Shown in pieces: positions 34,290 through 58,100 of a DNA stretch of 64,000 nt (the stretch's first letter is position 1; the number at the start of each line of letters is the position of its first letter). This stretch comes from Caenorhabditis elegans. Lineage: Eukaryota; Nematoda; Chromadorea; Rhabditida; Rhabditidae. The notes under the pieces are model-generated. The model was not told where the DNA came from and did not search any database. It saw only the letters and a program-made list of their open reading frames with translations. The DNA lies in contig NC_003283.11 in the NCBI RefSeq assembly GCF_000002985.6, positions 3,472,001-3,536,000 of the forward strand, given 5' to 3'. The translations under genes were made by a program, and so were the position numbers.

Positions 34290-35340
34290 CAGCACGGCGT
34301 GTAAAATTTAAAAACCTAGAAAAAAGCTTGAAAAACAAATGTACGCAATTATGAAAATGCGCGTGGTGTTTGCGGACTTGACTACCGTAGTCCACCTAAA
34401 TTTTAGCAATTAATGCTTCCCAGTTTCGTTTTATATGAAAATATCGCTGAATTAAAGCAAAAAAATGCATTGTCTTATTGAAAAAGAATGAAGGAAACAC
34501 TAAAATTATATGAAATTCAAATACAAAAAATATGAACTACGCATTGAACGAAACAAGGCAGTTTGAAGCTGCATTAAGGAACAGAAATTTTAAGTGTAAA
34601 CTTGTGACGGTGGGTATACATTTTATGTACTTAAATTGTTCGAAAACCTTCATTCAGTCAATTGGTGAAGTTTCAAAAACTTTGTGAATCTAGTTTTTGA
34701 GAAAATTTCAAATTTGTGGCAATTTTACCGATTTTTCGTGGATTTCCGAGCTTAAATTGAAAAATTCAATGTGAACTTGTGACGGTGGGTATGGATTTTA
34801 TGCACATAATTTGTTTGAAATAGTCTACCAAGTAAACTGGTAAAGTTTCAGAAACTTTGTGGGCCTAGTTTTTGAAAAAAGTTCAAAAATGTGCCAATTT
34901 TGTCGAATTTTAGTGGTTTTTGGAGTTAAAATAGAAAAATTCAATATGAACTTGTGACGGTGGGTATGATTTTTTTGCACATAATTTGATTATAATAGTC
35001 TACTGAGTAAACTGGTGCAATTTCAGAAAATTTGTGGATCTAGTTTTTGAAAAAAATTCAAAAATGTGCAATTTTTGACGCATTTTCCTAATAATTGCCT
35101 GATAAATCAAATTTCCACCTATATTCAGGAAAATAATCGTTTTTAAATGTGATTTATTCATTTTAAAAACAATTTTTTGTATATTTTTGTAGTTTTGATC
35201 CATTATAATGTCTCATTCATCGATTTTCAATGACATTAAAAATTTAAATTCAAATTTCGCGCGCTTTGCCGCGGCCATGGCCTAGGATTCTCACTTTTCA
35301 CTTTTCGCTAGGCCAGATGTACCAATTTACACGCCGTGAT
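34290..35340. mobile_element. Non-autonomous element with inverted ends around a 175-bp tandem repeat
   Basis: CAGCACGGCGTGTAAAATTT on the left and AATTTACACGCCGTGATC on the right are inverted. Inside lie three tandem 175-bp units and a GGCCATGGCCTAGG palindrome at about 35272. No transposase frame was found. Confidence 0.6.
34601..35100. repeat. Three tandem copies of a 175-bp unit
   Basis: CTTGTGACGGTGGGTAT begins at 34601, 34776 and 34951, exactly 175 bp apart each time. Each unit continues with a TTTATG(T/C)AC-like segment, AAACTTTGTG and CTAGTTTTTGA. The units have diverged by scattered changes, mostly in A/T runs. Confidence 0.85.
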
Positions 35341-42361: not shown

Positions 42362-44480
42362 ACTCGGCAATTTGGTTCTCCTTTCTTTCGCTCTTTTTTC
42401 ACCTATCTTTCACCCTTTTTTCGCCTAGATTATATCGGCGAAATATAGCAGTGGAAGTGCGAAAGAAAGGTGAATATGTGCGAAAGAAAGGAGAACCAAA
42501 ACGGAAATTTATCGAAAAAACATAGATTTTATGGAGATTTTTATGTATTGTACTTTATTCATCTATCATTTACTTTCTCAACGTTTTTTTTTATTGCTGA
42601 TATTTTATGATTAGTAGCTCCATCCTGGATTCCGTTGTCGTTGTGGGTTGAACTCAGTACCTTCGGGACGTAAATCGCGTGTGTTACCTCTTGCACTATT
42701 CTCGCGCTGATTCTGATTTTGTGTGAGGTGCAATAAATAGTAAAGAAGTCCTCTACTCTCCCCGATAGTACTATTTGTAGATTTCTAAAAGGTGTTTCTG
42801 AGAAAGTGATAGCGTTTTCAGATAAAATAGTTTATTTAATATACCCTTCAATCAGTGAATGGTTGTAAAAACAAGCAGAGAGTGATACTCATAGTCTATA
42901 GACCTCTATATTCTGTCTTTTGGGAATGTATTCAAATAATCTCTTTGTTTCTAAATACTGTTTACAGCCATATTTATACAACATGTGACGATGTAGACGT
43001 AGGTTGTAAAACCTGACAGAGAGATGGTCATCTACATTCTGACTTTTTGGAATATACAGTGGTGGCTAAAAGGATATGCGTTTTCAGTTTTCCTAGTGTA
43101 ACTTTTTTCATTGTGCTTCTTTTTATCTCAAATTTTCGGACAACATATAATGGCACTAAATACAATTATTTTATGAGTAGTTTTCATAAATATCAAAAAA
43201 TAAAAATTTTATGACATTTTTTTCAAAATTCAAAAATTGAAAAATTCGATGAATTTCGGAGAAAGTCTGAACCAAAAAAATTATTAGCAGAAGTTGCAAA
43301 AAACAGTGAAGCAGATTATTTTTATTGTGTATCATTTTACAATATTGTACAATGAAATTGGATTGGTCACAACGTGGCATTCGGAACTGAGACCACTGGA
43401 AAACAAGACTGGTGTGGCTTTGGCTGAAGCTTTGTCCAAAACAACTTTTTTTTGTTGAAAGTTTTCGAATTTTCATTATCCTACTAATCATACAAAAATT
43501 TGAGTGTATTGCCTCCAGTCACAAAATCAATGTCATCTACGATCCTATTTCTTCTAGGCTATTTGGTGAGATAGTCAAACACGTATAATGAAAATTCTAT
43601 GAAGTTAGAAGAACATTTTCAGCCAACACAAAGTTGCCGTTTTTTCTACATTTGTTCGTTTCAAACTTAAATAGCTCTAATCCAAGAAGGCTATAGCTTG
43701 CCAGTTTCCGTACTAAGTATTTTTGAACTGTACATATATTGTCTATTCTTTTTTTGGAAAATGTGGAATTTTCAAATGCAGGTACTTAACCTGTGTAGCT
43801 TTCTGAATTGTGCCTCGTTAAAATTAACAGTCGCAGTAGTTTAGCAACAGAGGTTTATTCCAACATTTGCCACTGTTTACGGAAAAATAGCATGAGCAGC
43901 GGTTCACACTTTGTGTTCAATACAACTGTAAACAGCATGTCCGAAATTCCGAAATATATCCGAAATATAATTTTCCAAAAGTCAAAATGGTCAGGTCAAT
44001 ACTCGAAAAGATTTGTCTTTTTTAGGTTTTACAATCATTCATTGACAACGTTTCTTTACATGCCAACACATGCCAACGTTTCTTTAGTTGTTTTAAGTAG
44101 GTACTAAGTACTAAGTAAGTAAGTATGAAAAAAGATCCTAAACGACAAACTCCTTGTTTTGACCACCATTTTTATACCTTTTTTAAAAACAATTTTTGGT
44201 ATTCCTCAGGAAAACTGTCTTCCTCAACAATAATGGAGAAACAAATAATGTTATCTGACAACTAATTAGTAACTAGAAAAGGAAAAAGTGCCGAATTCAT
44301 AACTCTGAACAGCTCTCATCTACCCCAATTTTACTGATATGCGAAAGAAGGGAGAAGAAGTGCGAAAGAAAGCAGAAGAAGAGCGAGAAATAGGTGAAAA
44401 CAGCGCTTGGCGGCACAATTCACTGATGTGCGAAAGAAAGGTGAAGAAGTGCGAAAGATAGGAGAACCAAATTGCAGAGT
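42362..44480. repeat. Element bounded by inverted GCGAAAGAAAGG clusters
   Basis: The left end ACTCGGCAATTTGGTTCTCC and the inverse of the right end (ACTCTGCAATTTGGTTCTCC, from GGAGAACCAAATTGCAGAGT) match at 19 of 20 positions. Both ends are rich in GTGCGAAAGAAAGG or its complement; the left end itself folds back over 42370-42500. The interior has no convincing coding sequence. It may be one 2.1-kb element or two related fold-back elements. Confidence 0.6.
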
Positions 44481-46188
44481 CACATCTTAATTGGTTATTT
44501 TTAAAATGATCTAATTATCGTTACTGTTTTTCGAATAAAGTTTTGCAAATATAGTATTCAGCAAGTAGTACCTTACTAATATAATTATGAAAGTTTTATT
44601 ATAAAAACTCATGCAGATATTGCGGTCAAAAAAGTTACTGCTTACCTTCTGAACTAGAACTGTACAACACAGTATTCGGCTAATAGTATTTTGGTTTCGG
44701 AAAATAATATTCTTTGGAAATTTGTTTGATGAATATGAACCCTATTCTGTTTAATCTGAGTTGACTTAGAAGACAATTCAAAGTTTTAAAACGGATTGTA
44801 CTTTCGATTTCTTTTCAGAAAATTACTTAGTGGCCACAGTAGAAATTTTTCCAACACGTCTAATCCTTTCTACGTAATTATGTTTTTACAATTTCCTATG
44901 TGATTTGTGCCGGACAGATTAGCTTTTGTATTCAGTAACGTGAGACAAAAACAGGAACAAGTACAAAATTCGATAGACACCATCTCGATATGGAGAATGT
45001 ATTTGTGCTACAGTACCAATTGCCAAATTCAGATAGCGCCACCCACATTTCTGAATATCGTATCGTGATTCTGAATCATTGAATATTTTTGAAGACAAAA
45101 ACACATATGAGTAATTTTGATGAGAACAGAATATATTTGATTGAGTAAGAGAGAACAATAAATACAAAAAATCGAAAAATTGTATTGTGTTTTGATGGGG
45201 AAATGATTTATAAAAGAAGCTCATGTCATTGAATTTTTATTTAGTTCTGTTTAGCTTTTCTCACTTAGAGTTGAGCTGATAGTTTATTGCAGTGTGGAGC
45301 TTTAGTTCACAAACCGCATGGAAACGTTGAGCAATTTTCTGACAATCTACCATAGCCGAAAAATTTTCAGAACTATGTCATCATACAAATTTTCAGTCAG
45401 TGCATTTTCAATATTTTGGCAAACCGTAGGTTTGCTTAAAAACTTTTTTTGCAGACTTTTGATAATTTTTTTTTGATCTTTTTTTTTTAATGAATAAACA
45501 TTTGAAATTGTTTTGATCGGCACGGATGAAACAATTTTAAGTTTTTTTCACAAAACAAAATGCAACGGCTGGAAACAATTTTTTTTTTGAATTACCGTGA
45601 AACAAAGAGATTTGGTAACAAATTTTGATACATAATTAAACCGTATAATCAAAATTTGACGGTGATTTCAAAAACAAAATTGTTTCTAGCAGCTGCGACA
45701 TTGACAAATCGGTCAAATTTCAAATTTTAACTAATATTATGTCATTTGTTTAGCCATCACAACTTTATTCTGAGAAGTTTTCAAGAAGTTTCATTATGAA
45801 ATTCTGTGTTTTCAGACAATTTTGAGTCTAATAAAGCAATTAAAAAATTGGACTATACCACCATTAATATGATTTCAAGTATTCGTATAATGAATTATAC
45901 TAGAAAAACTCAAACTGTAAATTTTCTATTTTGAATACTTAACAACTGGGTTTTACTCTAACAATCAGAGAATAATGTATTGTATTTTGTGTTGCTAGAA
46001 GCAACTGGTTGTAGTATCTGATGTTAATTTCTGATCAGCAGATTATGAGTAATCTTTTTTCTAAAAATTTTAATCTCGCTTCTATAAAATCCCCCAGAAC
46101 GTGAGGCTCGATAGTTATTTTTCAATTGAAAGCATTTTTCGAATATTCACTTCTCTTTCCCATTTCGAATCTTGTAAATTATTCCAGA
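44481..46188. other. Intergenic region before str copy 4
   Basis: About 1.7 kb of AT-rich sequence with poly-T runs and no gene. The final 100 bp resembles the upstream DNA of str copy 2. Confidence 0.45.
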
Positions 46189-47801
46189 ATGCTTGGCAAA
46201 GAATGGAGTGCTCTGTTGAAACTGATTCAGGATGTTTCAGCGGTTTTCTCTATTGTGATCAACACTTTCCTGATCGCCTTAATTCTGACAAAATCCCCAA
46301 AACAGTTGGGCGCGTATAAATGGCTAATGATCTACATTTCGGTTTTTGAGATTTTTTACTCAATTCTGGATGTGGTGCTAGTTCCGGTACGTTCAACTTT
46401 TGATTGGGAACAATCAAAATTCTGGGAGAGTAGGATAATAAATGAGCGACTAGTTTTTTATTCGATTTATCTAGTCTAGACGAGCACGTGATGACAGGCT
46501 GTCCCATTACGGTTTGATCTACAAAAAATGCGGGACTTTTTTTTACCAGAAACATGTGACGTCATGAGCTTTAGCAGTGAGCCATCGGCGGCCGCAATTA
46601 GTGTCGGCTGCTCACTTAAATTGTACTCACTAAAACATTGTTCAGTGTATGCTAGTGTAAATAACTGTATGGTTTTCTAACAGCTGAGCAAAGTCGGATA
46701 TTTACTATTAGAGGTGCTTTGTAAGGCTATGAGTTTTAAAATTTTCAGCAACACTATTCCCACGGTCCCACATTTCTGGTCATCGTTGGTCTTAAGGACA
46801 AACTGTTCGGCCCCGCAGGCCTCCTTATTCTGAATTCCTGCTACTGGGGATGCTTCGGTGCATCGATGGCAGTTTTCGCTGTTCATTTTGTCTACCGATG
46901 GCTTGTTGTTACTGAGTGAGTATTAAAATTGAAACTCATCTGATAACCTTTTATATTTGCTCAGGCACCCATTGCTCGAGACATTTAACGGATGGAAAAT
47001 CTGGATTTGGTTCTCGGTTCCTATGTGGTACGGGTTGACTTGGATATGCACCGGATATATTCTCTCGGCACCAAATGAGCACACCTCGAGATTTATAAAG
47101 TAATTGTTTAATTTCAGTATTTTCTCATTGTCTAAATTTGAAATTCAGGGACAATGTAAAAGAGATATTCGACTTGGAATTTGATGAATATGTCTACTTG
47201 GGGCCATTTCTCTACGAGAAAACTGATAATGGAACTATTGATGTGCACATTGTGCCATTTATTGGGTTGGGCATAATTTCTGGAACTATTGTGAGTTGCA
47301 GTATAGGCAAGTTCGCATTATTCTCGTAATAAATTCCAGGTATCATCCATCATAATCGTCCTAGTCTTCGGTATTCTTTGCTACCAAAAAATCAATAAAC
47401 TAGTTGCCACTACTGCAGCTTCTGCCAAACTCATCAAGCTTCAGCGTCAACTGTTCTATGCCCTTGTTATCCAAACCCTAGTCCCTTTCATCTTAATGCA
47501 TATCCCAGCAGCAATAATGTTTGCGTTCGTTTTCCTGGACATTGATCTAGGCGTCTACAGTGCTGTTGTATCAATGACCATTGCAATTTATCCGGCAGTT
47601 GATCCTATTCCGACGTTGGTTATTGTTGAGAATTACAGAAAAACCATTATCAGTGAGAACTGAACTATTTTAAACAAAATCAGACAATTTCAAATTTCAG
47701 GGTACTTGAAACTAGATTGTGTCAAAAGATCTTCAGTAGCTGTAGCAACTTCCACGACAGAAGCAAGATCTGCAAAAGCTTCAGATCCCGTTCCATCTTA
47801 A
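46189..47801 (+). CDS. Serpentine receptor class R (str family), tandem copy 4
   Basis: Starts MLGKEWSALLKLIQDVSAVF and follows the shared exon plan. It has LTKSPKQLGAYKWLMIYISV, QHYSHGPTFLVIVGLKDKLF, GASMAVFAVHFVYRWLVVT, WICTGYILSAPNEHTSRFIK, FDEYVYLGPFLYEKTDNGTI, KLIKLQRQLFYALVIQTLVP, MHIPAAIMFAFVFLD and IAIYPAVDPIPTLVIVENYR. The tail is longer and more Ser/Ala-rich than in copies 2 and 3 (RYLKLDCVKRSSVAVATSTT ... SDPVPS). Intron 1 is enlarged by a dispersed repeat at 46485-46575. It is the last intact receptor before the tandem-repeat zone, and no disruption was seen. Confidence 0.9.
46485..46575. repeat. Dispersed TGTGACGTCA repeat in str copy 4 intron 1
   Basis: GACAGGCTGTCCCATTACGG, TTTGATCTACAAAAAATGCG and ACATGTGACGTCATGAGC, the same blocks in the same order as at 63849 and 13376. 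The copy is truncated on its right. Confidence 0.7.
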
Positions 47802-48109
47802 ATGTTTAGAAATAAAATTTGAAGGATAAAATTACGCATCGTCACTTTTTGAATAAGGTTTTAGGAACACTCTGGCAACATAGAGCAGAGTGGATGGGTA
47901 TATTTGAAATCAACTCGTTATTTGCCCGTTTTATTTTATTCGAGAGACTCGAGCCAAGAAAATGGTCTTCAAAAATTATGATTTTTATCAAGTGTAAAAT
48001 TAAAATCATTACTTATATATAAAAAATACATGAGGGATGTTACAATTGTAGTTTGTAGTCTGTGACGTCACACTTGCAAGGTGTTTCCGGCTGTTGGAGG
48101 GATTGTGGG
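47802..48109. other. Downstream region of str copy 4
   Basis: About 300 bp of 3' flank with an AATAAAA just past the stop. A TGACGTCA core at 48062 marks the edge of the repeat zone. No gene was seen. Confidence 0.4.
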
Positions 48110-48477
48110 TTGGGGTTAGTGGTGGGATATGGTCGGGGTACTGTAGTAGTGCTGTAGTAGTACTGTAGGAGTACTGTAGGATTACTATATTTTTTGAAAA
48201 ATTGGCTTTTCGTCTTTTGAAGTGATATTGCTTTGGGGTTAGTGTCGGGATATAGTTGGGGTACTGTAGTTGTACTGTAGAGGTACTGTAGGAGTACTGT
48301 AGGATTACTGTATTTTTGAAAAAAATTGGCTTTTCGTCTTTTGAAGTGATATTGCTTTGGGGTTAGTGTCGGGATATGGTTGGGGTACTGTAGTTGTACT
48401 GTAGAGGTACTGTAGGAATACTGTAGGATTACTGTAGTTTGGGAAAAATTGACTTTTCGTCTATTGAACGGATATTG
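48110..48477. repeat. Three tandem copies of a roughly 123-bp unit rich in TACTGTAG
   Basis: Each unit begins GGGTTAGTG(G/T)(T/C)GGGATAT, passes through four or five TACTGTAG/AGGTACTGTAGGA motifs, and ends GGCTTTTCGTCTTTTGAAGT, ATTGCTTTGG. The third unit grades into the next array at about 48470. Confidence 0.85.
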
Positions 48478-48484
48478 GAAACTT

Positions 48485-48770
48485 TGAGAAAATTCCGGAA
48501 TGCTCCAGAACCTTCTGGAAAATTCGAGAAAATTCTGGAATGTTCCAGAACCTTCTGGAAAATCCGAGAAAATTCTGGAATGTTCCAGAACCTTCTGGAA
48601 AATCCGAGAAAATTCCGGAATGCTCCAGAACCTTCTGGAAAATTCGAGAAAATTCTGGAATGTTCCAGAACCTTCTGGAAAATTTGAGAAAATTCTGGAA
48701 TGTTCCAGAACCTTCTGGAAAATTTGAGAAAATGCTGGAATGTTCCAGAACCTTCTGGAAAATTCGAGAA
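48485..48770. promoter_or_regulatory. Continuous array of phased heat-shock-element pentamers
   Basis: A 40-bp unit repeated about seven times, but with a deeper 10-bp period: about 29 successive decamers fit nnTTCnnGAA, for example TTCCAGAACCTTCTGGAA and AATTCGAGAA. That is alternating nTTCn and nGAAn pentamers, the binding form of trimeric heat shock factor. Decamer spacing stays at 10 bp throughout. Departures are single-base (CTC, TCC, TTT or TGC for TTC); the GAA half is kept in every unit. Function is inferred. Confidence 0.85.
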
Positions 48771-48775
48771 AATTC

Positions 48776-48832
48776 GTGGTGAGACCCTTCGTGGTGAGAC
48801 CCTTCGTGGTGAGACCCATCTTGGCGAGACCC
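48776..48832. repeat. Four 15-bp GGTGAGACCC units
   Basis: GAGACCC recurs at 48781, 48796, 48811 and 48826, exactly 15 bp apart, within GTGGTGAGACCCTTC. On the minus strand this reads GGGTCTC, similar to a heat-shock-associated motif I recall being reported in C. elegans, though I cannot confirm the published consensus. Confidence 0.75.
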
Positions 48833-48844
48833 ATAATTTTCTGA

Positions 48845-49940
48845 TAAAAAATTTTGGCGGGAAATTCAAATTTTCAGATAAAAAATTTTGGCGGGAAATT
48901 CAAATTTTCTGTGAAAATTTTTGGCGGGAATTCAAATTTTCTGTGAAAAATTTTGGCGGGAATTCAACATTTCTGTGAAAAATTTTGGCGGGAATTCAAA
49001 ATTTCTGTGAAAATTTTTAGCGGGAATTCAAATTTTCAGATAAAAAATTTTGGCGGGAAATTCAAATTTTCTGTGAAAAATTTTGGCGGGAATTCAAATT
49101 TTCTGTGAAAAATTTTGGCGGGAATTCAACATTTCTGTGAAAAATTTTGGCGGGAATTCAAAATTTCTGTGAAAATTTTTAGCGGGAATTCAAATTTTCT
49201 GTGAAAAATTTTGGCGGGAATTCAAAATTTCTGTGAAAAATTTTGGCGGGAATTCAAAATTTCTGTGAAAAATTTTGGCGGGAATTCAAATTTTCTGTGA
49301 AAAATTGTGGCGGGAATTCAAAATTTCTGTGAAAATTTTTAGCGGGAATTCAAATTTTCTGTGAAAAATTTTGGCGGGAATTCAAAATTTCTGTGAAAAA
49401 TTTTGGCGGGAATTCAGAATTTCTGTGAAAAATTTTGGCGGGAATTCAAATTTTCTGTGAAAAATTTTGGCGGGAATTCAAATTTTCTGTGAAAAATTTT
49501 GGCGGGAATTCAAAATTTCTTTGAAAAATTTTGGCGGGAATTCAAAATTTCTGTGAAAAATTTTGGCGGGAATTCAAACTTTCTGTGAAAAGTTTTGGCG
49601 GGAATTCAAAATTTCTATGAAAAATTTTGGCGGGAATTCAAATTTTCTGTGAAAAATTTTAACGGGAATTCAAGTTTTCTGTGAAAAATTTTGGCGGGAA
49701 TTCAAATTTTCTGTGAAAAATTGTGGCGGGAATTCAAAATTTCTGTGAAAAATTTTGGCGGGAATTCAAAATTTCTGTGAAAAAATTTGGCGGGAATTCA
49801 AAATTTCTATGAAAAATTTTGGCGGGAATTCAAGTTTTCTATGAAAAATTTTGGCGGGAATTCAAATTTTCTGTGAAAAATTTTGGCGGGAATTCAAATT
49901 TTCTGTGAAAAATTTTGGCGGGAATTCAAAATTTCTGAAA
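48845..49940. repeat. About 34 tandem 31-32-bp units carrying TTTTGGCGGGAATTC
   Basis: The unit is AATTCAAATTTTCTGTG then AAAAATTTTGGCGGG. Nearly every copy keeps TTTGGCGGGAA, which matches the E2F/DP consensus (TTTGGCGGGAAA or its complement TTTCCCGCCAAA). Rare variants read AGCGGG, AACGGG or TGTGGCGGG. Two unit types alternate (AAATTTTC and AAAATTTC), showing higher-order duplication. The 32-bp period is close to three helical turns. Confidence 0.88.
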
Positions 49941-49944
49941 AAAA

Positions 49945-50077
49945 AACTGGAATGTTCCAGAAGTTTCTAGAAAATTCGAGAAAAGTCTGTAATGTTCCAG
50001 AACTTTCTAGAAAAATCGGGAAAATTCTCGAATGTTCCAGAATTTTCTAGAAAATTCGAGAAAAGTCTGGAATGTTC
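49945..50077. promoter_or_regulatory. Second heat-shock-element array
   Basis: About 13 decamers again in nnTTCnnGAA phase: GAATGTTCCAGAAGTTTCT, AGAAAATTCGAGAA, GTTCCAGAATTTTCTAGAA. Unlike the first array it contains TTCTAGAA, the classical C. elegans core. It resembles a diverged sister of the 48485 array on the other side of the GGCGGG array. Degenerate TTCTAGAACC-type motifs continue to about 50260. Confidence 0.75.
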
Positions 50078-50404
50078 AATTCCCTGAAAAAATTCAAGAA
50101 ACTTCTGCGAAGTTCTAGAACCTTTCAAGTTTTGATACTCCTAGAATATTCTGAAGTTTTAAGAATTAAAAAAAAACCAGAAATTGTTATAGATAATTTC
50201 CAAAAACGCTCGCCAAAAACTTTCGGAAAGGACCGGAAAAAGTCTCATAAAAGTTCCAGGAAACTTGAGGTTTTAAAATTGTAATTGCTTAAAATTAAGT
50301 ATATAATATTTATGTTGCTCGAAAACTTCCGGAAAACAAGGAAAAAAACGTTCCATCTGCAGTGAAATGCTTAGAAATTTCAGAATTTGATTTTAATTTT
50401 GAGT

Positions 50405-50450
50405 ACGCCAGTCGGAGCACGCGCTTCAGCGCGTGCGAACGGCTGGTGTG
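50405..50450. repeat. GC-rich hairpin
   Basis: GCACGCGCTTCAGCGCGTGC is an 8-bp perfect stem with a TTCA loop, extended imperfectly by CGCCAGTCG and CGGCTGGTG on the outside. It could be the terminal hairpin of the element that brought the arrays; no clear Helitron CTRR terminus follows. Confidence 0.6.
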
Positions 50451-50495
50451 AAAATATTTCAAATTATTTGCTCTCGTTGAAAATCGACAATTCAA

Positions 50496-51457
50496 TCAGC
50501 ATTGTATCACTCCAATAGAATTTCTTTGCAAATGCAAACGAGTAGAATGATAATGCGATGTTGATATTTTTGAAGGTTCATAGAAAATCTTTCTGACAGC
50601 ATTCCGATAAAGGGCATGAAGCAGAAGCAGTGCATTTGTTGATACAAATCCATGAAATGAAGCAATAGTCAGCATAATGTTCATTGCTGCCTGATTGTGA
50701 TATTTAATCAATGTTGACGCCGCTGTATAAATCAACGGGCATACGAAGCAAGTCAATGGGATTTCCATCTGCATCACCAGAGAAATGCAGAATCGCTTTT
50801 GAAGTTGAAAAGTTGCCTATGATATTTTCTGGTGTCGAAATTGTTGGAGTATGTTCCAAATTAGAAGAACACCGAAGCCAATCATTTCCCAACAAATAAC
50901 TGACATCGCAGAGAATGCTCCGATAAAAGTATAAGTTATGTTCTGACATAACACAAATACCGGAGCATGGTAGATGTAGTCAGGTAGGCAGGGAAGTTTC
51001 TAGAAAACAAAATTTTCAGTGCAATTTTCGCTTTTTTTTTAAATTAAACAAAAGTTTTATAAAAGTTTTACTATGATAACTGATCATTTTTGCGCTATAA
51101 GAATAGTTTTCAACCTCCATAACGTCGATTTGGTAAAACAAATTCTGAAACTCTTAGAGAACAACTAAAAATAGTTATTCTAACCTCAAACAAATGCTGA
51201 AGAGCGATTTCCTGATCTGGAACAAAAAGATCCACTGGGACCAATAGAATAATTACAACGATATAGTGTGCCGCGAGGCATAATTTCCTCCAGAATGTCC
51301 ATCGTGTGTTATAGGAAGTTGTGCAAATAATGTAGAATCGATTCTCAAATATGGATACTATACTATGATAAGCTTGCACCTGCATTCTTTTGTTTGCTAT
51401 CATTTTTTCATGACGCGACGCGAGGACAATAATCAAAGTAAATACACAAACACTCAT
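50496..51457 (-). pseudogene. Serpentine receptor class H (srh) pseudogene, N-terminally truncated with in-frame TAG
   Basis: The open part starts MSVCVFTLIIVLASRHEKMI at 51457 and continues QAYHSIVSIFENRFYIICTT, LLVPVDLFVPDQEIALQHLF, then an exon KLPCLPDYIYHAPVFVL, CWEMIGFGVLLIWNILQQF. A TAG at 50817-50819 interrupts the frame, which then continues correctly with ATFQLQKRFCISLVMQMEIP, HNQAAMNIMLTIASFHG and STNALLLLHALYRNAVRKIF. These are class H marks from TM3 to the C-terminus. TM1 and TM2 are missing: the next 136 bp upstream are the start region of the NADAR gene. It is disabled by both the missing N-terminus and the stop. Confidence 0.8.
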
Positions 51458-51593
51458 GTGTTTCCTTACTCAATTCAACATAAATGTTTCGCAATTTTTC
51501 AAAATATTACTGGCGCTTATAAATACGAGTAATGATGTCTTCGCAAAATATTCAACGTTAATTTTTTACTAACAACAGTTTTTCAGAATAAAA

Positions 51594-52575
51594 ATGCATA
51601 CAAAGGTGTACGTTTCCGAAGACCGCACAAAAGTATTCGTGCTTTTCTATGAAGCAGCATGCGTATTTTCAAATTTCTATCCCTCCGGCTTTGAGGCTAA
51701 ACCTGTTGAGAATTTTTTGAAAGATACGGAGAAAAAGGAGAAGCTGCTGAAATTCACTTGTAGTGAGCAATATTTCATGTAATCTTGACATCATTTTTTG
51801 TTAAAATAAAACTAGAAATTTTCAGGTACAATAAGGCGTTGCTAGTTGGGGACATGGACATCGCAGAGCAGATTTTGAAGGAAACTAATCCAATGAAGAT
51901 GAAGCTGCTGGGAAGAAAGCTGAGCATGACAAAGGAGCAATTGAAATTGTGAGTTAAACAGGCGGTCTTATGTCTGGACTGTGCTTGGTGAATTTTTTCA
52001 AATAAGTATACCTCCGGAACTAGAAATGCTAATTTAAAAAATTTAACTAACAAACTATGAAAAGGTCTATGTGTTTTTACATGTTTGAATTATTTCATAA
52101 GCCAAAGCTTAATCCTGGTAAGAAATAAAGCATCCGACATCTTGTGAGTTCATTTCTGACTAACGGACAGGCAAAAAAAAGCACAACTACTTTCAGATGG
52201 TCTCAAAAATCAAAGGATGTAATGTACCGCGCATGTTTGGAGAAGTTTTCTCAAAACGAAGATTGTCGGATGATCTTGTTCCGTACCCATGGAATGAAAC
52301 TTGTGGAGGCCTCACCAACCGATAAAATTTGGGGAATTGGTAAATGAATCTTAAATTTGTAATACAAAATATATGAAGTAATTTCAGGTCTTGACAAAGC
52401 AGACCAGCGGTGTGAAGATGAACGAAACTGGAGAGGATCGAACTGGCTTGGAGAAGTTTTGGATCAAGTCCGAGAAGAACTGTGGACGAGGCAGGAGTTC
52501 AAGTCTAACAGAGAGCAGATTCTAAAGGAGAGCCTGGAAACTAGATGCCAAATTTTGGAGCATTTCTCACATTAA
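51594..52575 (+). CDS. NADAR (DUF1768, YbiA-like) protein, tandem copy 1
   Basis: Four exons, 51594-51778, 51826-51948, 52197-52339 and 52388-52575, join in frame to 212 residues, a near full-length single-domain protein. Family blocks are FSNFYPSGFEAK (about residues 27-38), CSEQYFMYNKALLVGD (57-72), LGRKLSMTKEQL, WSQKSKDVMYRACLEKFSQN, LVEASPTDKIWGIG and NWRGSNWLGEVLDQVREEL. NADAR enzymes are N-glycosidases; members remove ADP-ribose from modified guanine or cleave riboflavin precursors. The protein has no signal peptide, so it is cytosolic or nuclear. Its role in worms is unknown. The promoter is very short, backing onto the srh pseudogene. Its paralogue follows 0.7 kb downstream. Confidence 0.88.
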
Positions 52576-53293
52576 CTTATCAATTTTTATGGAGAGACAA
52601 AAAGTTTTGAGTTTTGGCCAAATTAAAATTTAAATGTCCACGATTTTGTGAAGGTTTTGCACGATGGAATAAAGAGTTTTCCACATTTCAATATTTTTCT
52701 GTTTAACTTAAAGTTTACCTCTGACAGAATATACCCGTTAAAAAATTCCTAAACTTTATAATAATATGTTTTCAATTTTGCAAAAACAAAATTAGGGGCA
52801 AATTATTTTTTGAATCCCGCTCAAATTAATGACATAGAGTTGACATTTTTGTGGTTTTTGGCTGAACTTCTTTGCGTTTTGGTAATTTTTTGTTTTATCT
52901 AAAAAAAAATCAACAAAACAATTAAAAATTGTTCTGCGGAAAAATGTTTGAAATGTTCAAAAATAATTTTTATAAAAATTAAAATTAAATTTAAAAAAAA
53001 TAGAAGAGCCAATATCTATAATAATCCATAATACTACAGCCTTTTAATTTTTGCAAAATTGAGAAACATTTCAAAAATTTAGATATTTCAGGTTTTGTTC
53101 TCAGAAATTACACCTTGGAGTCCGTTTCCCCTTTTAAAAATTCTGCAACCATGCCAAACACCATAGTAACAAAGTTGGATGGATTAGAGAAAAATAGCAT
53201 TTTAAAATGTTGTTTCGCAATCTTTCGAAACGTTACGACTTCTGTTTTTGTGAAGACACATTTTCATTTTTTCCATATTTATATTAGAGCAAA
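52576..53293. other. Intergenic region between the two NADAR genes
   Basis: About 720 bp, AT-rich, with no gene. The spacing and separate upstream DNA argue for independent promoters, not an operon, although spacing alone does not exclude co-transcription. Confidence 0.5.
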
Positions 53294-54178
53294 ATGCCTG
53301 TCAAAACTTACATTTCTCCGGACCAAACCAAACAATTTGTATTTTTTTACAAATTTGACTGTGTATTTTCCAACTTTTATCCATGCGAATTTTCTGCTCA
53401 AGAATTCGAGAACGATGTAGAAAAAAATGTCAATTTCAATTGCAGTGAGCAGTATTTTATGTAAGTTTTGTCATTTTTAGCATTTGTTTTTCTAGAACAT
53501 TATATTTAGGTACCATAAAGCTTTGTTGGTTGGGGACTCTGAAATCGCTGGGAAAATTCTGAAGGAGACTGATCCTAGAAAAATGAAAAGGCTAGGAAGG
53601 CAATTGAGTATGAGCAAGAAGCAATTGGAAGAGTAAGTCGAGAGAATTTGAGTTTTTTTCAAGGAGTTTATATTTTTGCAGATGGTCTCAAAATTCTAAA
53701 GAAGTTATGTATAACGGGTGTCTTGAAAAGTTTTCCCAAAATAATGTTTGCCGTGAAAATCTGTTCAGAACTCATGGTATGAGACTTGTAGAAGCATCGC
53801 CAATGGATAGAATATGGGGAATTGGTAGGTTTTCTTTTGTGCATTTTTCCAGTAGAACCTAGGATATTTAATCTCAAATTTTTGTATTTTGGCTAACTTT
53901 TTTAAACGTTTTTAAGCTTCCCAAAGGTACTGTAACTTTTTTTTAAATTATGAAACATTCTACAATGACGTCTTCACCTTTCAATTACAGGACTGAGCCA
54001 CCACGACAAACGATGTGAAAATGAGCAAACTTGGAGAGGAACTAATTGGATGGGTTCCGTTTTGGATAAAGTTCGAGAGGAATTATGGACAAAGTCAGAG
54101 TACCAGCAGTTGAGATTGGAAATTGAAAAGGAGATTGTTGAGACGAGATGTAAGCAGCTGGAATCATTTTCTCATTGA
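53294..54178 (+). CDS. NADAR (DUF1768, YbiA-like) protein, tandem copy 2
   Basis: Starts MPVKTYISPDQTKQFVFFYK, with FDCVFSNFYPCEFSAQEFEN, CSEQYFMYHKALLVGDSEIA, LGRQLSMSKKQLEEWSQNSK, LEKFSQNNVCRENLFRTHG, LVEASPMDRIWGIG, WRGTNWMGSVLDKVREELW and a closing LESFSH. Four exons at the same positions as in copy 1 prove tandem duplication. The main difference is a shortened stretch between FSNFYP and CSEQYFM, with a few residues deleted. All other blocks, including EASP..D..WGIG, are intact, so both copies should fold and may be active. About 210 residues. Confidence 0.87.
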
Positions 54179-54457
54179 TTAATTTTTAAACCCTATTTTT
54201 AATTTTATTTCTGTTGTATTTTTCTAAAACAGTACATCGCTCAAATTGTCTTATGGTGTCTAAAGCATAGGCCTTCGACCATCACACACAATCATCTGCT
54301 GACGTTCTTTATTGAAAAAACTTATTATCTATTTCCCAATATTCAACTTTACGATAACATCCGGTCTCCCACGTATTATTACAATCAATTGTTTTCTCAC
54401 CAACTTTTCTACATTTTTTTCAATCACTACTTTCTAAAGTCGTATTAAATTATTATC

Positions 54458-54655
54458 ATGGCGTTTTATGAATATTCAAGCCCATTTGCTAAGATATGCT
54501 TTTCTGTGGGACTCCTCACAAACGTATTCCTACTGTACATGACATTGTTTCACATCAAAAAAATAAAAGGCACCTATAAAATTATGGTGGTCTTGTTTTC
54601 GATGCTAGGTATATTTTTCGCTAGCACCGAAGTTTATTGTATTATAAAAAATATC
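54458..54655 (+). pseudogene. Fragment of a str/srj/srd-type receptor (TM1-2)
   Basis: MAFYEYSSPFAKICFSVGLL starts a plausible TM1, followed by NVFLLYMTLFHIKKIKGTYK and IMVVLFSMLGIFFASTEVYC as TM2. The G-T-Y-K link between helices is typical of the STR superfamily. After about 65 codons the frame runs directly into a GCGGCAA-type repeat, and no later exons follow before the complete gene at 55182. It is a transposon-truncated relic. Confidence 0.65.
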
Positions 54656-54663
54656 TCTCAACA

Positions 54664-54857
54664 TTTCCGGCAAATCTGATATCCGGCAAACGGCAAATCG
54701 GCAATTTGCCGAAAATGAAAATTTCCAGCAAATCGGCAAACCGGCACATTGCCGGAATTACAAATTTCCGGCAAATTGGCAAATCGGCAAACTGCCGATT
54801 TACAGAATTTGTCGACAAAAAATTTCGGAACGGTAATTGCCGCCCACCCCTTGTTCG
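54664..54857. mobile_element. Truncated GCGGCAA-type MITE
   Basis: Dense CCGGCAAATCGGCAAAC-type motifs ending GTAATTGCCGCCCACCCCTT. The left terminal CAGGG..GGCGGCAA is missing, so the element begins within the receptor fragment and is 5'-truncated. Confidence 0.6.
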
Positions 54858-55181
54858 GCTAATATTCCAAAAAATTCAAAAAAAAATCGAACTTGATGTT
54901 AAACTTATGTTTGCATGGGAACGTAAGTTTTGAAGGAAACAAAAAGTTTAAAAAAAAAACTTTTCGGCAAATTTTTACATCAGCTCATTGAAGTATAGCT
55001 TTTACTAAACCTCACCAAAAATTCTGTTTAGTCACCTTTATTTTTCTTAGCTAGTGACGTTTCTACTCAAATCCTCGTACAATTTTAACTCGATAACAAC
55101 TACATTTTTGCCGGAATTCAGTCCGAACAAGAATTGTTTATAAAATCGGTCAGCTCAAACAAAATGAATCATTGATAAACG

Positions 55182-58100
55182 ATGGAGATCAACGAGAACG
55201 TGTTTCGTGTTTTATCAGCTTGCGCGATTTCCATCAACTTTTTGCTGATAATTTTGATACTCAGAAAGTCTCCGAAATCATTGGGTTCTTATAAATATTT
55301 GATGCTTTATATTAACTTATTCGAGTTTACATATGCAATTTTGTATTGTATAGAAAAACCGGTCAGTCTATAATCTACGAATCGTTTAACTTCTTTTCAA
55401 GGCATTGTTTAGTACTGAACACAGATTGTTCTTTTTTCAATATTTTTTGCACTTAATGTGGGAATTGGTCATTTTTGGTAGCTTGTGATGAACTTTTTAT
55501 ATTAAAACCCCAAAGTTTCATTTTTCCGTCTAAACTATAAGACAATTGAAAAAATGCGCTGGGTTCAGCCTAATTTAGAGTACTGTATCATTTTTTAAAA
55601 GCCATATATTTTCAGGACTTATTCACTAAAGGATCTGCATTTTTTCTCATTGCAAACTTCAAGCAATCTATATTCCCAAAATTAATGGCGTGCTGCTCCG
55701 TTTGTAAGTTACTTTTCACTTTTTGAGTTTTTTTTATTCATATCGGTTTTAGTGTTTTACGGCGGCTTCTACGGAATAACACTGGCGATTCTAGCCCTAC
55801 ACTTTATCTATCGCTTTCTCAGTATTACCAAGTGAGTACGTTATATTGGTGTATACAAAATTGAATATCTATATTTTATAGCAATCGTCATTTGAATTCA
55901 TTCAATTCCTGGAAAATAATATTGTGGTTCATGGGACCCCCGATTAGTGGAATCATTTTCATGCTCACCGGAGCGTTTATCATGAGCTCCAATGGAGATA
56001 GCGATAGGTTTCTGAGGTATGAATAATAGCTACGAATGCATGCTGGAATTACCAAGCGGCCCACCCGCACGGCGAAAAAATTAGCAGCCAACACCGCACG
56101 AGTTCCTCCACACTCATAACTACTAGAAATCACGAGATTGTGAGACGTCGGCCGCGTAATTTAGCAGCCACCACCAAGCGAATCTTTCCACCCACAACTA
56201 TCAGGAAGCACACACCCGTGAGACGTCGGTCGCGGTGTTTAGAAGCCGACACCGCACGAGTTTCTCCACACTCATAACTACTAGAAGTCACTAGAATGTG
56301 AAACGTCGGCCGCGTTATTTAGTGGCCGACACAGTGCGAGTCTCTCCACCCGTACACGGTGTGGAATTTTTAACAAAAATTCAAAAAAAAAAGATGTTCC
56401 AAAATTTAATTTATTCTCACGCGAGAGGCTTGAATTTTGAAACTTCTTCTGTGTGCCTATGATTTGTTTCAGCTCTTTTTCAGCTTTGATTCAGTTTTTA
56501 AGAATACTTTTTTTGGAAGTAAGCAAATTGAGTGTCATTCCTGCGAATTTGTTAAAATAGAATCTAAAATATCTTTGCTCTATTTTAGAAAAACAACGAT
56601 GAAATATTGATCGTACAAATATAATTTTATTTCATAAACAGTCACGAAGGCGAGCAACGGCAAAGTTAACAAGAACAAAAACAAACTGAAAGTTATTCAG
56701 ATGGTCGAAATCAAGTCCGAATGATACATATTTGTACAGGAATTGTAGATAATTGCCTATTTAGTGTTAATAGTTTTAGTCTTCTTCTCCACTTTGTCGA
56801 CGCACTGCTCCGAAAGTATAGGTGCCACGTTTTTCTAAATATACTAGATTTGTAGACAATTGCCGGTTTAGTGTACTGACGAAATTTAAGAAAAAAAGTT
56901 TAGAGGAATTTTCAGCTAGGTCACTTTATCTGGATCAAATCTCTTTTTTTTGGCATTTTCTCAACTTTGTCGGAGCACTGCTCCGGGAGTATGCATGACA
57001 CGTATTTTTAAACATGCTAGAATTGTAGGCAATTGTCGATTTCATATTCTGATAAAGTTTAAAAAATTTAAAGGAATTTCTAGCTAGGTCGCTTTAACTG
57101 GAACAAATCTCCTATTTTTAGGCCTAAACTCAACTTTGTCGACGCACAACACCGCAAATATGAATACCTTGTGTTTTTGAACATACTAGAATTGTAGCCA
57201 ATTGTCGATTTAGTATACTGAAAAAGTTTAAAAGAATTTCCAGCCAGCTCAGTTTTGCCGAAATTGGAACCATATTTTTAGGTGCTTTTTTGAGAAAATT
57301 ATGGTTTTTCTCGAAAACGAAGTCGGCAAGAGGGTATAAAAGTATATTAGAATTGTAGATCTCAATTTGATTAGTGTATTCGTGAAGTTTAAGGAAAAAA
57401 TTTAAGGAAATTTCGAGATATTCAGGTCGAAAGATTGTCATTTTATCAATATTTCATCGTTGTTTTTCTAAAATAGAGCAAAGATATTTTAGATTCTATT
57501 TTTAAAAATTCGCTGGAATGACACTCAATTTGCTTACTTTCAAAAAAATGTTCTTAAAAACTGAATCAAAGCTGAAAAAGAGCTGAAACAAATCATAGGC
57601 ACACAGAAGAAGTTTCAAAATTCAAGCCTCTCGCGTGAGAATAAATTAAATTTTGGAACATCTTTTTTTTTTGAATTTTTGTTAAAAATTCCACACCGTG
57701 CCGTAACTGCCACAAAGCACACACCCTCGAGACGTCTGCTGCATTCATCTAATTTTTCCAGTGAAAATTACCCAACCCTGCTTGGAAATGAAACAAAAAT
57801 TGAAGATTTATATTATGTTGGCCCATTCTTCTGGCCGAAATATAACAACTTTACTACGGATCAATATTTTAATTGGAGAACAGCCGGGGGTGCGATGATT
57901 GTTATGGGATTGATTGTTAGTTTGAAAACAGAGAATCAGCATCAACTAGTATAATTTTCAGAGCCTATCCATTGCTATAATGGTGTATTTTGGAGTAAAA
58001 GGGTACCGAAGCATGAATAAACTTATAGCACAGTCGAATTCGTCACAAAAATTTCGAAGTGTCCAAAAGCAACTATTCAACGCTCTGGTACTTCAGACTT

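Follow-up and report, generated by a model that had tools for sequence, protein, structure and literature searches.

Heat Shock Element Array in a Helitron

The window analyzed here is a 64-kb stretch of the Caenorhabditis elegans genome (C5:3472001-3536000), and the genome searched was an assembly of 100,286,401 bases in seven contigs. At 48006-50446 of the window, flanked by the 3′ ends of two genes, lies a 2,441-bp non-autonomous Helitron, and inside it, at 48483-48772 (about 3.5205 Mb on C5), is an array of heat shock elements to which no strand is assigned. It consists of 29 consecutive TTCnnGAAnn decamers in one phase (58 pentamers in 40-bp units), a decamer being counted if at least 5 of its 6 core letters match. 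In total, 166 of 174 core letters match; 50 of the 58 pentamers are exact and eight have one mismatch, all eight mismatches fall within TTC half-sites, and a strictly perfect run spans at most 11 pentamers. A functional heat shock element is defined by at least three alternating nGAAn/nTTCn pentamers, and the array exceeds this number. When 100 sequences of 64 kb were simulated with a first-order Markov model, the longest decamer run was 2 in 90 of them and 3 in the other 10, and it was also 2 in the window once the Helitron was removed. These comparisons confirmed that the array is real and far from chance, and they bear out the near-perfect run of about 58 pentamers described in an earlier note on this DNA. 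That note took the run for an array of HSF-1 sites, a reading backed by the sequence and by published chromatin immunoprecipitation sequencing for the element class (PMC6927752).

Tandem Repeats Finder describes the array as a repeat of period 40 with 7.5 copies and 94% matches. Because of this periodicity, the pentamers are not independent; the array arose by copying of one eight-pentamer unit. Within the 40-bp unit, the four decamers agree in each of the six core columns, and none of the four spacer columns is uniform. The main array contains 35 exact three-pentamer sites, the whole element 51 and the remaining 61.6 kb of the window 4.

The limits of the Helitron, which lies on the + strand, were set by genome matches, and its termini were found in 14 copies, the one in the window included. 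As is typical of Helitrons, it begins with TC (48006) and ends with a CTRR sequence, here CTGG (50443-50446). The 5′ end TCATTACTTAT is present in 14 of 14 copies and is preceded by A in 13 (by C in L017), while the base after CTGG is T in all 14, CTGG itself belonging to the search string by which the copies were located. The flanking bases of the copies thus agree with another property of Helitrons, insertion between A and T with no duplication of the target. The hairpin expected about 10 nucleotides before the 3′ end was read directly at 50417-50436 (+ strand) as GCACGCGC-TTCA-GCGCGTGC, with an 8-bp stem and a 4-nucleotide loop, 6 nucleotides before CTGG. Judged by both ends in 14 copies plus the hairpin, the segment is a Helitron, and the Helitron-borne nature of the sites, which the earlier note had raised, holds. 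The genome has 13 PF14214 matches, all of them outside the element, and the two long open stretches of the element gave no Rep match; missing Rep/Hel is expected for a non-autonomous copy. The family is most likely HelitronY4_CE, a name suggested by a published statement on Y4 copies, eight of which are reported to hold more than 100 heat shock elements each (PMC6927752).

Other parts of the element are repetitive as well. Upstream of the main array, a 124-bp repeat rich in GTACTGTAG is present three times (48110-48477, + strand, Tandem Repeats Finder) and recurs in the genome. The TACTGTAG found in these repeats is a candidate for a published motif. Downstream follow four copies of the 15-bp repeat TTCGTGGTGAGACCC (48773-48832, + strand, Tandem Repeats Finder), then a long array of a 32-bp unit, described below, and a second heat shock element array, shorter and more degenerate (49947-50077, no strand assigned, Tandem Repeats Finder), with an in-phase run of 8 decamers. 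The minus-strand open frames 48043-48873 and 48429-48899 were considered as coding and rejected, as their Pfam matches sit on translated tandem repeats. On the minus strand, the translated 15-bp repeat matches the Pfam GLTT repeat, a family that may in part describe translated repeats, and the translated repeat in 48429-48899 scores 33.8 bits against a cut-off of 27 for Thr_dehydrat_C, an apparent false positive.

Neighboring Genes

A str-type G-protein-coupled receptor (GPCR) gene (exons within 46105-47663, + strand; PF10326 on two open stretches) and an srh-type GPCR gene (exons within 50496-51469, - strand; PF10318 on two open stretches) both present their 3′ ends to the element, so the promoters of both lie on the far side from the array. 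Moving right, the first gene with its 5′ end towards the element is a NADAR-domain gene (51594-52575, + strand, limits set by eye; PF08719 on one open stretch, 52129-52344). The closest NADAR ATG lies about 2.8 kb from the main array and 1.5 kb from the second one, the gene is 1.1 kb from the end of the element, and the srh gene sits in between. For Helitron elements as a class, heat shock is reported to raise HSF-1 and RNA polymerase II (Pol II) occupancy, and nearby genes are induced (PMC6927752). The array could act as a heat enhancer of the adjoining str, srh or NADAR genes, as had been proposed for the str and NADAR genes; such a role is possible, but it is disfavored by the position between convergent 3′ ends and by the distance to the NADAR start, with a gene intervening, and we consider it very improbable.

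Two NADAR-domain genes stand in tandem at 51594-54178 (+ strand), beside the GPCR genes. Elsewhere the window has tandem repeats of 175 bp (2.8 copies, 34595-35075), 80 bp (56081-56349) and 169 bp (56826-57239). An Rfam scan of 44000-56000 gave zero families at the gathering score, and a transfer RNA search of the window found none.

Copies of the Element and Size of the Array

Among up to 40 candidates scored in each search, about two dozen matches to the left surroundings start near 48004 and more than 30 matches to the right surroundings end near 50447. Of 20 stretches compared, 13 qualify as close copies in which both ends are present; L018, L019 and L024-L028 were excluded. These 13 share 97-99% identity with 50060-50447, 12 over the full stretch and one in two pieces, and the family therefore spread recently. 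The arrays keep a common order across the copies while their unit numbers vary; GGCGGGA repeats, characteristic of the 32-bp array, are present in 13 of the 14 copies and absent from L021.

The earlier note singled out the size and phase of the array, and a ranking of loci by consecutive pentamers does not sustain this. Seven of the other 13 copies have longer decamer runs, of 141 (L016, on C1; about 282 pentamers), 89, 57, 57, 53, 37 and 32, and the 29-decamer run of the window comes next, tied with L011. A much cleaner array is found in L026 (C6:442400-446400), whose strictly perfect run has 37 pentamers versus 11 here, so the array is neither the largest nor the cleanest. By exact three-pentamer sites, the window stretch (51) ranks 20th of 39 stretches of unequal length. 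For its class, the array is of ordinary size.

Such variation is what would be seen if the 40-bp unit expanded neutrally as a satellite, by slippage or unequal exchange and perhaps during rolling-circle replication, with HSF-1 binding incidental. Unit number ranges from a few to about 35 between family copies, a few unit haplotypes dominate, and the adjoining 32-bp array also expanded, reaching 118 units in one copy. Against it stands the agreement of the four decamers of the unit at every core column and at no spacer column. Together with the conservation results given below, which speak on both sides, these observations leave purely neutral growth slightly short of an even chance in our estimation.

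The human satellite bound by HSF1 is satellite III. The Helitron arrays might jointly draw HSF-1 off from chaperone genes, or serve as seeds for nuclear HSF-1 granules as human satellites do. The exact seven-pentamer pattern has 2,038 matches genome-wide (overlaps included), whereas the backwards pattern has none. HSF-1 is reported to bind Helitrons by preference in heat-stressed germ cells, and the HSF-1 granules of worms form again at similar sites, with a composition described as largely unknown (review PMC9737000). However, the 58 pentamers of the window are a small share of the genome total, and a single copy can hardly matter. A decoy role is plausible for the genome as a whole rather than for a single locus, and we regard it as rather unlikely.

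Conservation of Cores and Spacers

Divergence at core and spacer columns was compared among 40-bp units; since units share descent, the p values are indicative only. Outside the family, 24 loci hold the exact 33-mer used for the search, which treats core and spacer alike, and 23 of them were used (one beside L022 was omitted); they were chosen by this 33-mer, not by Helitron ends. Over 154 units, core divergence was 0.076 and spacer divergence 0.224 (permutation p 0.0014), and the contrast held without the units containing the search 33-mer (0.082 versus 0.255, 133 units, p 0.0005). Ten hand-picked loci from the 33-mer search gave 0.081 versus 0.217 (p 0.0037), and the 13 added loci alone gave 0.064 versus 0.231 (p 0.0006). 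Spacer divergence exceeded core divergence in all 18 loci with at least three units, the other five being counted in the pooled test only, and the true phase gave the greatest contrast of the five phases. This better keeping of the cores argues against neutral growth.

Several results weigh against a constraint on the sites. The main arrays of the window family had core and spacer divergences of 0.052 and 0.018 (150 units, 12 copies, L021 and L022 omitted; p 0.88). The values were 0.074 and 0.067 for distinct units (p 0.58), and 0.054 and 0.035 for 189 units from 14 copies (p 0.73), a count confined to the sequence before the first GGCGGGA save in L021 and L022; a set of 233 units includes L028, outside the 14 copies. 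Cores are not better kept in the window family, and its arrays therefore give no indication of selection at present, in line with neutral growth. In addition, a core-only pattern picked out 11 loci with a smaller contrast (0.086 versus 0.167, p 0.018), and among them the phase shifted by one base gave a contrast of 0.130, above the 0.082 of the true phase. A comparison of 27 loci, in which L037, L043 and L047 were dropped for having fewer than three units and L004 and L046 overlap, included three (L035, L040 and L045) with spacer divergence not above core divergence.

The arrays outside the family are more divergent, and we infer from this that they are older. We read the pattern as constraint on the putative HSF-1 sites in the older arrays and as relaxed growth, apparently driven by duplication, in the window family.

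E2F-Like Array and Rep-Coding Loci

The long array at 48835-49944 (no strand assigned) has 34.5 copies of a 32-bp unit, as defined by Tandem Repeats Finder and motif counts. The unit carries TTTTGGCGGGAATTCAAA and includes TTTTGGCGGGAA, which we take to resemble the E2F consensus and which has 27 exact occurrences in the window copy; TTCAAA mostly follows it. The string GGCGGGAATTCAAA occurs 23 times in the stretch of the element. Genome-wide, the unit has 664 matches with up to three mismatches, versus 0 for the backwards pattern. TTCAAA fits the code TTYRAA of the cell cycle genes homology region (CHR) (PMC5683655). The E2F-like GGCGGGAA of the unit beside this hexamer may correspond to the E2F and cell cycle-dependent element (CDE)-CHR sites of the DRM (DREAM) complex (PMC3093354, PMC5683655), from which the array differs in being tandem, about 34-fold, and made of sites that are putative by sequence, with an E2F core not specially conserved. 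That core ranked 12, 14 and 15 of 32 sliding positions in other arrays, with units having one-base-shifted variants included or excluded, and was thus not conserved above the rest of the unit; an earlier count had scored the shifted variant as several substitutions and so inflated core divergence. Selection on the E2F core is not supported, and the best-kept part of the unit lies around ATTCAAATTT.

Both kinds of site recur at Rep-coding loci, of which there are seven, six on C2 and one on C6. The six C2 loci have 10 to 27 GGCGGGA in the fetched stretch, which, one stray apart, precede the Rep match by about 1.8 to 3.3 kb, and heat shock runs of 4 to 5 decamers between the GGCGGGA array and Rep. 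At 6 of 7 loci, the E2F-like array comes first, then the heat shock elements and then Rep, and exact three-pentamer sites upstream of Rep in the fetched stretch number 11 to 13 in 6 of 7. At the C6 locus, the 4.5 kb or so before Rep contain neither a GGCGGGA array nor heat shock elements. The C2 loci probably arose from one another by recent duplication, and for that reason they do not count as six independent observations.

The two arrays are also kept together in 13 of 14 non-autonomous copies. This lineage of Helitrons may therefore be suspected of carrying a two-input regulatory cassette, an HSF array plus a long E2F/DREAM-like array. The finding that all six C2 loci have the two site types ahead of Rep moved this idea from very doubtful to doubtful in our assessment. 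A 2022 paper places at least 20% of EFL-1 binding sites in transposon-derived regions, and its available text draws no link between EFL-1 and the 32-bp array (PMC8896005). The main text of Garrigues et al. 2019 has E2F once, in the reference list, and no description of the array was seen there (PMC6927752). In the literature on Helitrons and E2F or EFL-1 the array was not found described; figures and supplements were outside the scope of this search, and it may be known.

Published Setting and Proposed Mechanism

The array is of a published kind, as Helitron-borne heat shock elements bound by HSF-1 are already known. Garrigues et al. 2019 assigned 11,527 of 18,766 genomic heat shock elements (61.4%) to Helitrons, and HelitronY4_CE, Y1_CE, Y1A_CE, Helitron1_CE and Helitron2_CE likewise have tandem heat shock elements inside their copies; there is no essential difference from the present element, apart from the neighboring E2F-like array (PMC6927752). 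Induction of Helitron1_CE depends on HSF-1 (Schreiner et al. 2019, PMC6765114), and the isolated HSF-1 DNA-binding domain is cooperative on multi-pentamer elements, with up to five domains (PMC9148306). Helitron families are also strongly tied to HPL-2, LIN-13, LIN-61, MET-2 and dimethylated lysine 9 of histone H3 (McMurchy et al. 2017, PMC5395297). The copia element ONSEN of Arabidopsis is likewise heat-activated, and genes near its new insertions turn heat-responsive (PMC6927752); it is a retrotransposon. Human satellite repeats in nuclear stress bodies similarly gather HSF1 after heat (PMC9737000), but they are pericentromeric, whereas the repeat described here belongs to a dispersed transposon.

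Very probably, the array belongs as a module to a non-autonomous Helitron, is bound by HSF-1 and was multiplied in tandem with little or no need on the part of the host. After heat shock, HSF-1 trimers would bind the array. In transposase-coding Helitrons, the heat shock sites upstream of Rep would drive heat-induced expression, and in non-autonomous copies the 40-bp unit would be carried along and duplicated in tandem to between a few and about 35 units. The locus in the window would then be a patch that binds HSF-1 and recruits Pol II between two convergent gene ends. Occupancy by HSF-1 is expected here from the class, the level at which binding has been published, and the copy most likely has little or no required host function.

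HSF and E2F reportedly co-regulate development. If the two-input idea were true, HSF-1 and EFL-1/DPL-1 would gate transposition by both heat and the state of the cell cycle or germline, and an E2F-like array that proved to be bound would bear on the germline control of these elements. A striking array is placed in a known setting and loses its claim to be exceptional; the analysis adds the E2F-like array beside the heat shock elements and the contrast between cores and spacers outside the family. In evolutionary terms, this contrast points to an importance of HSF-1 binding for arrays of the 40-bp unit, while in the family of the window the array appears to have grown without such constraint.
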